Positions 55,600 through 62,418 of a stretch of 64,000 nucleotides of DNA are shown piece by piece. Below the pieces are notes generated by a model. It saw only the letters and a list, made by a program, of their open reading frames with translations. It ran no database searches and was not told where the DNA came from. Source of the stretch: Anaerobacillus sp. CMMVII. Its GTDB lineage: Bacteria; Bacillota; Bacilli; Bacillales; Anaerobacillaceae. Position 1 is the first letter of the stretch. Each line of letters opens with the position of its first letter. The position numbers and the translations under genes were made by a program. The DNA is taken from the NCBI RefSeq assembly GCF_025377685.1, contig NZ_JACEHK010000002.1, forward strand, positions 186,001-250,000, read 5' to 3'.

Positions 55600-57122
55600 T
55601 TAATAATCGACTTTTTTTAGTGCTAACTCTGTAGGTCCTTCAATGATATCACCGTCGATTGAGTAGCGTGAACCGTGACATGGACAATCCCAAGATTTTT
55701 CTCCATCATTCCATTCAACTTCACAGCCTAAGTGTTTGCAGGTCGCATCAACCACGTGAAGTTGGCCGTCTTCATCTCGGTAAGCACCACATTTTTGACC
55801 GTTAACTTGACGTGAGCACCTTCTCCTACAGCAATTTCTTCAAGTTGTTTAAAGTTCATGCCAATTTTGCCTTTAATAAGCTGATACGCTACATCTGCAT
55901 TATGCTCAATGAACCTTTTAATGTCAGGGTCGGCATGGAAACGAGAAGGAGAGTAAAGCTCCGCATAAGGATTTGTCCCTCGGGTAATTAGATCAGAAAG
56001 GATCATTCCAGCTGCAGTACCATTAGTCATTCCCCACTTGCGATATCCTGTTGCTATATAAATATTTTCGGAACTAGATGTAAAATGTCCGATATAAGGC
56101 AGTTTATCGAGTGTATAGATATCTTGAGCTGACCAACGGGAATGGATATCGGTTAGACCTAAGACTTCCCTTCCGAAATTGGCAAGGGCTTCATAATGTT
56201 TCATTGTATTAATTCCATGTCCTGTTTTATGACCTTCTCCTCCTAGAAGTAGTAAAGTCTCATTTCCACTAGGCGTGGAACGAACAGACCGTGTTGGTGT
56301 TTCAGCGCTAAGATACATTCCACCAGGGTATGGTTCATGACTCTTCACGGCAACAACATAAGATCTTTCTTGATACATTTTTGAAAAATAAAATCCTGCT
56401 GCATCGTAAAAAGGATAGTGTGAGCAACAGATTACTTGTTTACTTGTTAACTTTTTCCCGTCTCGAGTAGTTACTAGAGGGTTAGCGCCTTCCTCGATAT
56501 TCACAGCGGTAGTATTCTCAAAAATTTGTCCACCATTGTTAATAATAGACTCTACGAGAGGTACTAGATATTTAGTGGGTGAAACTGTGCTTGCGCTTCC
56601 ATAACAAGTGCTTTCTTCATTGGTAATGATGTAAGTGGCATTTTTTCGACTAGTTTCCCCGGATTTGGAGTTTTTCATATGCCTTAGCTTCTTTTTCAAG
56701 CTTACTAAATTCCTTTTCAGAATTTGTATAGATATAAGCATCGTGTTCTTCAAAATCACATTGAATATTCAGTTGTTCGATTGTGTTTTTAATGAAGGCA
56801 CGGGCGCTGTCAGAAGCGCTATAGTACATCTTTGCCTTTTCTTCTCCGAAATGGTTGATAAATTCATCATAAATAATTCCGTGTTGAGCGGTAACTTTGC
56901 AGTTGTATGCCCTGTCGTTCCATTTAGAATTGAACCTGCTTCAATAAGAGTGACTTTTACGCCTTGTGAAGATAGTAAATAACCTGCTGTAATCCCTGTA
57001 ATTCCTCCACCGATAATTGTGACATCAGTCATGATATCTTCAGCTAAGCTTTTAAAACTCGGTAATTTTAAATCCTTGCGCCAATATGGTTCTGGAAATT
57101 GAGGCCATTTTATAGTTGTCAT
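55600..57122 (-). CDS. FAD-dependent oxidoreductase with C-terminal Rieske [2Fe-2S] domain (YhfW-like; four frameshifts here)
   Basis: With four restored bases the frame gives 508 residues, the size of Bacillus YhfW. The N-terminal DAO domain has DVTIIGGGITGITAGYLLSSQG and NGTTGHTTAK, the middle has QVICCSHYPFYDA and the FAD-binding YRKWGMTNGTAAGMILSDLI. The last 60 residues are a Rieske domain with CKHLGC and CPCHGS, then EGPTELALKKVDY and the stop at 55602-55600. Breaks are near 56899, 56655, 56575 and 55812; each lacks one base, and the skipped frames read expected family sequence. The substrate is unknown; electron transfer from an amine or thiol donor is possible. Confidence 0.8.
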
Positions 57123-59932: not shown

Positions 59933-60502
59933 ATGAAGCGAATAATGGTCATTGGTGTTTCAGCTGGTGCTGGAAAGTCAACATTAGCAAGAGAGATTAG
60001 TTCAACTTTGGGCATTGATGTTTATCACTTAGATTGTCTCTATTGGCGCCCCGGTTGGGTTGAAAGTCCAATAGAGGAATTTAGATCAGCGCAACAAGAA
60101 ATTATTGCAAAGGATAAGTGGATTATCGAAGGGAATTATGGGAGTACCTTTATGGTCCGATCAGAGCGTGCAGATACGATGGTCTACATCGAATTCCCTC
60201 TGTATGTATGTTTTTATCGAGTCGTGAAACGCTGGCTGACAAACTTAGGTAAAAATAGACCTGACATGGCTGATGGATGTCCAGAAAAATTAGATTGGAA
60301 GTTTATTAAATTTATTGCGACCACTTATCATGAAAGAAAGAAAACGATGGAAGATAGGCTTAAGACTTTTCAGGCTTTAGACAGTGGGAAACAGGTTTTC
60401 ATTTTAAGAAATAATAAGCAAATAAGAGCTTTTTTAAAGGCAATTAAAGAAAAATATGAACATACAAATTTTAGCGAGGAAAATGTAAATAAGAATTCTT
60501 AA
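59933..60502 (+). CDS. P-loop NTPase, topology-modulation/FlaR-like, adenylate-kinase-related
   Basis: A 189-residue small kinase-like protein. Walker A is GVSAGAGKST (residues 8-17), followed by DVYHLDCLYWRPGWVE, WIIEGNYGSTFMVRSERADTMVYIEFP and RVVKRWLTNLGKNRPDMADGCPEKLDW, the conserved block of the FlaR/topology-modulation proteins. Family members resemble adenylate and shikimate kinases but have no settled substrate. AGGAGG precedes the ATG. Confidence 0.85.
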   Translation: MKRIMVIGVSAGAGKSTLAREISSTLGIDVYHLDCLYWRPGWVESPIEEFRSAQQEIIAKDKWIIEGNYGSTFMVRSERADTMVYIEFPLYVCFYRVVKRWLTNLGKNRPDMADGCPEKLDWKFIKFIATTYHERKKTMEDRLKTFQALDSGKQVFILRNNKQIRAFLKAIKEKYEHTNFSEENVNKNS

Positions 60503-60624
60503 TGACAAAATAAGTAACATTGTTGTTAAAGAAAGCAAAAAGCGATATAGTGCTTATAGGGGTATTTTCAAGGGATTGAGAACTACATATACCATTACTA
60601 ACTACTTAATAAGGAGACAGTGAA

Positions 60625-61155
60625 ATGCGAAAAACTTTAGCAATGGCTTTTCTTGTTTTAGTAATTGCCTTAGTAGGCTGTGGAACAGAAGAAGAGAACA
60701 AAGAAAATGGTAGTAACGAAGAGTTACAATTTGTTCAAGCACAGTTTGATCTGGCCCTTCCAGATACAAACGGTAACATGGTAACAGTCATGCCAAATGA
60801 AAAAACAATCTATGCTTATTTCACAGGAGTTGGCTGACAAGTTTGTATTAATCAGCTAGTTGAGCTGAATAATAATATTGATAAGTTACCTGGAGTTAAA
60901 TTATATGCAATCAGCCTTTCTACACCGGAAGAGCACAAACTTATGAAGGATACATTTAAGCTTGATCATTTTGAGGTCCTAACAGATTATCAAGGTGAAT
61001 TTGGTGAAACGTTTGGGTTTATTGATGTGACAGAAAGTAAGGTTTACCGTGGCTATCTAGGTGTAAATCCTGAAACGACAAATATCACTCGTGAAATTGA
61101 TTATTTAATCGGTGAAAACATCAAAACTGTCATTAAAGTTATGGAAGAACTATAA
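60625..61155 (+). CDS. Thioredoxin-fold lipoprotein, putative selenoprotein with UxxC motif (in-frame TGA at codon 71)
   Basis: A 176-residue exported lipoprotein if TGA at 60835-60837 is read through. The signal peptide has lipobox LVGC (Cys19), then an acidic linker. A redoxin domain contains YAYFTGVG-U-QVCINQL, so the TGA is at the first position of the CxxC redox motif of thioredoxin/peroxiredoxin-like proteins; the resolving Cys is residue 74. The frame downstream is the same frame, free of stops, and reads a normal redoxin C-terminal half (GVKLYAISLSTPEEHKLM, then VLTDYQGEFGETFGF). A SECIS-like hairpin follows. The alternative is a Cys-to-stop mutation. AAGGAGA precedes the ATG. Confidence 0.7.
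60846..60874 (+). promoter_or_regulatory. Candidate bacterial SECIS element
   Basis: TATTA and TAATA, then after an A-A mismatch TCAGCT and AGCTGA, form an 11-bp stem with a 5-base apical loop AGTTG. The loop begins 20 bases after the TGA and has G as its second base, both within the usual bounds for bacterial SECIS hairpins. Confidence 0.55.
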
Positions 61156-61161
61156 TAAAAT

Positions 61162-61204
61162 AAAAAAACTCATCAGACAATCATGTCTAGATGAGTTTTT
61201 TTTT
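61162..61204 (+). terminator. Terminator after the putative selenoprotein gene
   Basis: AAAAAACTCATC and GATGAGTTTTTT with an AGACAATCATGTCTA loop, T9 at the end. Confidence 0.88.
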
Positions 61205-61226
61205 ATATTCAATGTTGCTATTTTAA

Positions 61227-61338
61227 TGAATTTCATAATTCGCAATTGTCGCTACTAAGTTCTAAATGTAGTTGCGGAAAACCCATTCGTAACTACATTT
61301 AGATTGGTATAGCTTGGTTAAGGTAATTATGATATTCA
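61227..61338 (+). repeat. Dispersed repeat R3 with inverted ends, copy c (complete)
   Basis: The left end TGAATTTCATAATT is the inverse of the right end AATTATGATATTCA at 13 of 14 positions. The inner hairpin AAATGTAGTTGCG/CGTAACTACATTT lies in the middle. It is 112 bp, non-coding, and similar to 26868-26983. Confidence 0.65.
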
Positions 61339-61708: not shown

Positions 61709-62418
61709 ATGAATCCAATAATGGCCCATCGGGGGTGGTCAAGTCGCGCACCCGAGAATACGTTAGCTGCAATTCAATTAGTTATTGACGAACCTTGGAT
61801 TGACTCAGTAGAGATTGATGTCCAACTTACGAAAGATCTGGTACCAGTCGTTATTCATGATTTTAGAGTAGACAGGACTACAAATGGATTGGGCTATGTG
61901 CGAGATTTTACTTTGAGTCAATTGCGAACTTTAGACGCAGGGTCATGGTTTGGCTCCCGATATTTAGGTCAGAAGATCCCTACTTTAGAAGAAGTACTCC
62001 AGCTTTGCAAAGGAAAAAAACAGTTGAACATAGAGTTAAAAACGAATGATGACATGTACAAGAACTTAGCGGCTATGGTTGTCCAACTTGTTGAAAAGAA
62101 CCAGATGGCAAGAGAAGTGATGATTACATCTTTTAATCTTGAAGGAATTAGAAAGATTAGTAAGGATAAGACTTCGATAGAAACAGGAATTATTATCAAA
62201 GGTGTCCCTTCTTCCCTAAGTCAAAAGCTAAAATATACAGGAGCTAATGTTATTTCTTTATCTTTTATTTTTTAACCAAAAGCCTTGTCGATCACCATCT
62301 AAGAGAAGGGAGGCAACTAGTTGCCTGGACTCCAAACACTAGAGAAGAAATTTCTTTTGTAAAACAAATGTCCGATAAAATTGCGATATGTACCAATTAT
62401 CCAGAACGGGTTTTATAG
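61709..62418 (+). CDS. Glycerophosphodiester phosphodiesterase (one frameshift here)
   Basis: About 236 residues after correction. A GDPD barrel starts MNPIMAHRGWSSRAPENTLAAI, with the catalytic His in AHRG and the metal Glu/Asp in VEIDVQLTKD and VIHD. It also has LNIELKTND. The first frame stops at 62275, but SFYFLTKSLVDHHLREGRQLVAWTPNT and ICTNYPERVL follow in the next frame once one T is added near 62264. It lacks a signal peptide, so it is the cytoplasmic type that hydrolyses glycerophosphodiesters to glycerol 3-phosphate. AAGGGTGGG precedes the ATG. Confidence 0.88.

Follow-up and report, generated by a model that had tools for sequence, protein, structure and literature searches.

The window analysed here is a stretch of 64,000 nucleotides from Anaerobacillus sp. 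CMMVII. Nt 60625–61155 of the window form a single frame of 176 codons, made up of 70 codons, a TGA at nt 60835–60837, 105 further codons and a TAA. Translation agrees with the preliminary description, which had reported a frame split by a single in-frame TGA and continuing for 105 codons. As had also been proposed, the TGA stands in place of the first Cys of a CxxC motif (VGUQVC, with G-U-QVC as residues 70–74). The protein read through the TGA begins with a signal peptide containing the lipobox LVGC. An acidic linker comes next, and then an AhpC-TSA domain (PF00578, residues 42–150), which scores 30.4 bits against a gathering score of 26. Its prediction as a lipoprotein, likewise made earlier, is supported by the family described below: Cys19 is invariant in all 27 rows of the alignment, and a simple pattern finds a lipobox-like motif in 47 of 49 members, the remaining two having GTGC and GAGC. 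The features of the locus are collected in Table 1.

Table 1. Observed and predicted features of the gene and its flanks (window coordinates).
Feature	Position (nt)	Strand	Basis or remark
Putative ribosome-binding site AAGGAG, 8 nt upstream of the ATG	60611–60616	+	likely; read from the sequence
Selenoprotein CDS	60625–61155	+	predicted lipoprotein, 176 aa, Sec71, AhpC/TSA (Prx-like) fold
Lipobox LVGC, residues 16–19, predicted lipidation at Cys19	60670–60681	+	sequence; Cys19 invariant in alignment
UGA codon, proposed Sec71	60835–60837	+	translation, conservation in orthologues
Cys74, second residue of UxxC, putatively resolving	60844–60846	+	translation, alignment
Whole predicted hairpin (5 bp and 6 bp around an A/A mismatch, AGUUG loop), unconserved in its lower 5 bp	60846–60874	+	RNAfold, alignment
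Conserved bacterial SECIS core: 6-bp stem 60852–60857/60863–60868, loop 60858–60862, G at position 2	60852–60868	+	RNAalifold, covariation, codon shuffles
Arg142, invariant in the 27-row alignment, aligned to Arg116 of peroxiredoxin AhpE	61048–61050	+	alignment
Likely intrinsic terminator: long hairpin with T run right after the stop codon	61162–61202	+	folding, z −8.7

The hairpin after the stop codon contains a bulge and is strong by folding; a consensus terminator scan listed no site at this position. With a ribosome-binding site before the ATG and a terminator-like hairpin following the stop, the gene probably forms a transcription unit of its own. Congeners share parts of its neighbourhood in scattered subsets: an AAA-type kinase at L025, an oxidoreductase at L025 and L028, GDPD at L026 and L028, and a 33-aa ORF at L024. 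The recurrence of neighbours in differing subsets suggests an old chromosomal gene and not a member of an operon. A tblastn search of a plasmid collection gave no match. Two genes nearby in the window look damaged. A gene on the minus strand (nt 55728–57122), resembling an FAD-dependent oxidoreductase by eye, is apparently split into two frames at about nt 56765, and the GDPD gene (nt 61709–62275, plus strand) encodes 188 aa and looks cut short, the open stretch in a congener being 260 codons.

The genome encodes a full set of selA, selB, selD and tRNA-Sec. An Rfam search finds tRNA-Sec with anticodon TCA at 58.6 bits against a cut-off of 47. The same search also gives weaker matches below the cut-off, and it finds matches in all 14 control genomes, above the cut-off in five; for this reason only the match above the cut-off is counted. 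SelB (349 bits), SelA (556 bits) and SelD (401 bits) each pass their cut-offs and are all encoded on one contig (C6), while among the 14 control genomes the cut-off is passed by SelB in two, SelA in one and SelD in two. The SelD gene itself has an in-frame TGA at the active site (GG-U-GCK). Three formate-dehydrogenase-family genes contain one in-frame TGA each; in two of them (L209 and L213, outside the window) the TGA directly precedes His (U-His), and the third is located at G000:C1:232984, also outside the window. The selenocysteine machinery is thus complete in this genome and serves other clients.

Orthologues were searched in 150 related genomes, the sample listing none from the same family but another genus. 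A search with the single protein gave matches in 45 genomes, from which 30 loci were fetched without requiring a TGA. In 27 of these loci the TGA coincides exactly with the U of UxxC. The other three (L046, L049 and L052) are AhpC/BCP-like paralogues lacking it, and were excluded from alignments A1 and A2. A profile was built from the 27, its Sec column being entered as Cys to avoid marking down Cys orthologues, and the same 150 genomes were searched, again without requiring a TGA. The profile search identified 35 orthologues at 157–218 bits in 33 of the 150 genomes. All 35 possess the TGA, read at the UxxC site in each; one lists a second TGA, located just before its start codon. The score then falls from at least 157 bits to 66 bits for the next match, which is the tail of a decayed copy in genome G144, and the matches listed below it have no TGA. 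An intact Cys orthologue was not seen in the 150 genomes by this profile search, which scored up to 24 candidates per genome; among the matches listed there are only TGA-less paralogous proteins resembling AhpC, BCP or ResA, and a very divergent Cys relative could be missed at this depth.

SelA is present in 33 of 33 carriers, compared with 76 of the 150 genomes overall (hypergeometric 2e-12 if the genomes are independent, uncorrected for kinship). Six of the seven genomes of the window's genus carry the gene. In a sample of the phylum, considering up to nine candidates per genome, 2 of 398 genomes gave a match at E ≤ 1e-17, one being the genome of the window and the other belonging to the same order. 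Together with 14 sequences found by a DNA pattern requiring the TGA and the stem, the 35 orthologues make 49 distinct members; UxxC and an Arg-Gly in the C-terminal part occur in all 49, though the members are related and such counts are not independent. Members are also found in records named Cytobacillus, Neobacillus, Mesobacillus, Fictibacillus, Halalkalibacter, Salibacterium, Aquibacillus and Planomicrobium. Fictibacillus, Planomicrobium and Cytobacillus are largely aerobic genera. In each of two genomes, G118 (L032/L068) and G001 (L025/L077), two TGA-bearing paralogues coexist that fall in different parts of the Bacillales tree. Across the orthologues, residue 71 is TGA and residue 74 is Cys, in agreement with the expectation of Cys or Sec at residue 71.

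The preliminary description had pointed to an 11-bp hairpin, with a 5-base loop carrying G at position 2, that starts 8 bases after the TGA and has its loop 20 bases away. RNAfold of nt 60835–60880 yields this structure: 6 + 5 bp around an A/A mismatch, −10 kcal/mol, starting 8 nt after the TGA, with the 5-nt loop AGUUG beginning 20 nt after it. Conservation is confined to the apical 6-bp stem and the loop and does not extend to the lower 5 bp. The structure satisfies the bacterial SECIS constraints given in the legend of Figure 2 of PMC13188914 (loop 3–9 nt, stem 4–16 bp, G in the first two loop positions, UGA-to-loop distance 16–37 nt, MFE ≤ −7.5): the loop is 5 nt, the stem 6 (+5) bp, the G at position 2, the distance 20 nt and the energy −10 kcal/mol. 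An Rfam search of nt 60500–61300 found no SECIS family; it gave three matches far below gathering scores, the best being mir-7445 (E 0.004) on the terminator-like hairpin.

Taken alone, the hairpin of the window is only moderately unusual. Over 46 nt its z is −2.35, with 4 of 200 shuffles as stable, and over 66 nt the z is −1.11, with 31 of 200. Its significance comes from the conserved TGA and stem, not from stability in the window alone. The apical stem is the RNAalifold consensus of the 27 sequences, which were chosen independently of the stem. It is paired in 98.1% of cells, compared with 87.8% in shuffles and at most 39% in slid versions. The covariation score is 0.288 against 0.106 for shuffled alignments, none of 500 shuffles being as high; however, only two of the six stem pairs vary, and the number of varying pairs was reached by 476 of the 500 shuffles and the number of pair types by 307.

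Codon choice is the best control for this stem, since it overlaps QLV(E/Q)L, a motif conserved in the protein. Each of the 27 sequences has a G-ending codon at residue 80, whereas in the rest of these genes Glu is encoded by GAG in 24% of cases and Gln by CAG in 45%. Residue 81 is encoded by CTG or TTG in every one of the 27; these two account for 26% of Leu codons elsewhere in the genes. The synonymous choice of CAG or CAA at residue 77 covaries with CTG or TTG at residue 81 (18/1/0/8, p 4e-6). Folding was also controlled with 300 protein-preserving codon shuffles for each of the 49 members, in 14 of which the search pattern itself had required the stem. The z averages −2.19 over the members, and the window sequence gives −2.99 (p 0.007). 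A p of 0.05 or below is reached by 34 of the 49 members and not by the other 15, L051 showing no effect (z 0.05). Of the 49 members, 46 form the stem in their MFE structure, a G is at loop position 2 in all 49, and the MFE is −7.5 or lower in 48, the exception being L024 at −7.4.

The conserved TGA and hairpin, the complete machinery and the predicted fold lead to the reading, held at a probability of about 0.95, that the gene is intact and that its UGA would be decoded as selenocysteine to give a membrane-anchored UxxC Prx-like protein. SelB and tRNA-Sec would decode the UGA at nt 60835–60837, guided by the 6-bp SECIS hairpin at nt 60852–60868. The lipobox predicts that the product is exported, cut and anchored on the outer face of the membrane, where the Prx-like domain would act through its UxxC active site. 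Sec71 may attack a peroxide or a disulfide, Cys74 would then resolve the selenenylsulfide, and an extracytoplasmic thiol reductant would presumably reduce the resolved form.

The predicted fold is of the peroxiredoxin/thioredoxin type. The AlphaFold model has a mean pLDDT of 87.5, about 96 over the domain, and places residue 71 after a strand, just before the first long helix. Foldseek ranks PrxQ/BCP and AhpC highest and lists AhpE from rank 17 onwards; the best sequence matches are likewise peroxiredoxins. PrxQ/BCP, AhpC and AhpE have the same fold and the same aligned Arg position as the window protein, but differ from it at the active site. When HMMER aligns the protein with peroxiredoxins of solved structure, Sec71 pairs with the Thr/Ser of TxxC, Cys74 with the peroxidatic Cys and Arg142 with Arg116 of AhpE. 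The Thr/Ser of the typical peroxiredoxin TxxC or TxxU is therefore absent, its place being taken in this register by Sec71. For these aligned Thr/Ser, peroxidatic Cys and Arg residues we assume the catalytic roles of peroxiredoxins.

The selenoprotein could instead be a thiol:disulfide reductase similar to ResA or TlpA, which we consider somewhat less probable than even. The placement of Sec71 on Thr/Ser and of Cys74 on the peroxidatic Cys makes the active site resemble a thioredoxin UxxC. DsbF (rank 11) and a secreted disulfide oxidoreductase of Mtb (rank 45) are within the top 50 structural matches, and a lipid anchor would suit such an enzyme. ResA, StoA and TlpA share a CxxC-type motif and the thioredoxin fold with the window protein, and they are extracytoplasmic, as proposed for it. 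Their sequence similarity to the family is weak, however, with the ResA model matching 7 of 27 members at E ≤ 0.001, and the family differs in having Sec and the Prx-type Arg. Against a reductase are the peroxiredoxins as best structural and sequence matches, and Arg142, at the peroxiredoxin Arg position and invariant in 27 of 27 rows. The genomic context also fails to favour it: scanning two neighbours gave matches to GDPD and, below its cut-off, to AAA_18, and no cytochrome c or cytochrome c maturation genes are among their matches. A peroxide as the substrate of the selenoprotein is given a chance of roughly one half. A more specific proposal, which we put forward tentatively and consider rather unlikely, is that Bacillales cells carry, anchored to the outer face of the membrane, an obligate-Sec peroxidase in which Sec replaces the Prx Thr and the old peroxidatic Cys becomes the resolving one.

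That the TGA is a true stop or a mistake, arising from nonsense mutation, pseudogene formation or sequencing error, is very improbable. The window does hold other genes that look frameshifted, such as GDPD at nt 61709–62275. Yet the same TGA is found in 35 of 35 profile orthologues from 33 genomes, and its presence in 32 genomes besides the window's makes a sequencing error very unlikely, as the preliminary description had argued on other grounds. The pN/pS after the TGA is 0.15/0.65 and 0.13/0.69 between the window gene and two congeners. All 8 pairs compared have a lower ratio downstream of the TGA than upstream, and pN alone is lower in 7 of 8, the exception being L031/L032. These ratios indicate that purifying selection is acting downstream of the TGA, and selA is found in all carriers. 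A truly decayed copy looks different: in L200 (G144:C37:366500–369000, about 1150–1640), frameshifts have accumulated and the UxxC stretch is lost, while selA is still in the genome. Judged from these comparisons, conservation refutes the pseudogene or error reading in practice.

Less probable still is that a suppressor or reassigned tRNA inserts Trp or Cys at the UGA. In favour of this, the site is Cys in distant relatives; against it, selA is present in all 33 carriers among the 150 genomes, and the hairpin is kept at synonymous sites, which a plain suppressor would not need. SelD and two formate-dehydrogenase-family genes likewise have TGA at their Sec sites. Equally improbable are two separate genes, a 70-aa lipoprotein and a downstream ORF from the ATG at nt 60943: each half is listed as an ORF of 70 aa, but the 35 codons between the TGA and this ATG contain UxxC and QLVEL, the family's densest run of invariant columns, and one Prx fold spans both halves.

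The predicted protein belongs to a kind that has been described. UxxC members of PF00578 were called 'Prx-like' in the Sargasso Sea survey, which reported bacterial SECIS elements for its families (PMC1088965), 'Prx-like 1' in GOS (PMC2398784), and 'Prx-like thiol:disulfide oxidoreductase' in two reviews (PMC9312934; PMC13188914, Table 1). As these proteins are characterised in the portions cited (PMC13188914, PMC1088965, PMC2398784), they combine PF00578 with UxxC in place of TxxU, as does the window protein; PF00578 matches 27 of 27 members at E ≤ 0.001. As for the claim of a new selenoprotein, the sel genes and the conserved TGA strongly support the selenoprotein part, and its newness needs to be limited, judging by those portions, to membership of a described kind. 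Compared by description with the published Prx-like proteins (reference protein WP_010940744.1), the window family is distinguished as a predicted lipoprotein, found in the sampled genomes in only one Bacillales-type order and with no intact Cys orthologue seen in the 150 genomes. By its sequence the gene belongs to a predicted lipoprotein branch of the known UxxC Prx-like kind, marked out by the lipid anchor, by the absence of an intact Cys orthologue from the genomes sampled and by its spread in Bacillales. Among open-licence PMC papers, no description of a Bacillales redoxin lipoprotein selenoprotein was found. A 2006 survey counted three Bacillales selenoproteins of three families, unnamed in the part cited (PMC1794560), and one of these may be the window family. 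No NCBIfam model scores above its cut-off for the window protein or for the six members examined in detail, and among the best E-values of the other members the lowest is 3e-10 (AhpC). A pipeline working without a model would presumably annotate a pseudogene here, or else a pair of short ORFs.

Selenoproteins are described as rarely retained by aerobic bacteria in the section of PMC13188914 cited here. The gene family offers a cultivable system for asking why cysteine does not replace selenocysteine. Should the obligate-Sec peroxidase prove true, it would, with SelD and formate dehydrogenase, partly explain why many Bacillales keep the Sec machinery, and why cysteine is insufficient.

Related UxxC redoxins occur in other phyla. 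The DNA pattern TGA-N6-TGY-N6-CARCTNGTNSAGYTG, which combines the motif and the stem, was run on one genome per species for 84,980 species. It gave at least 119 stretches (at least 120 matches), from Acidobacteria, Chloroflexi, Proteobacteria, Planctomycetes and others. Of the 120 matches listed, 15 are Bacillales lipoproteins, one being identical to a member from the profile search. The family profile fits 118 of the 120 at E ≤ 0.001, a partly circular test; with the motif masked, 97 of the 120 still fit at E ≤ 0.01, compared with none of 120 reversed controls. The redoxins of other phyla share UxxCxxQLV(E/Q)L and the apical SECIS stem, as imposed by the pattern. They differ in having N-termini of their own (such as FYRGxW and FRSADW), and among the matches listed they reach at most 76 bits on the Bacillales profile, where the Bacillales members score at least 157.

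In a quick tree of 92 rows, 49 are from Bacillales, and the 40 used of 80 rows from other phyla are the highest-scoring ones with at least 85 residues. A weakly supported branch (47) separates the 49 Bacillales rows from the rest, and one long-branched Armatimonadota row attaches near it. In the UxxC redoxins of many phyla (L081–L199), the apical SECIS stem overlaps the QLV(E/Q)L codons, and from this shared overlap the protein motif and the SECIS element may have been kept together.
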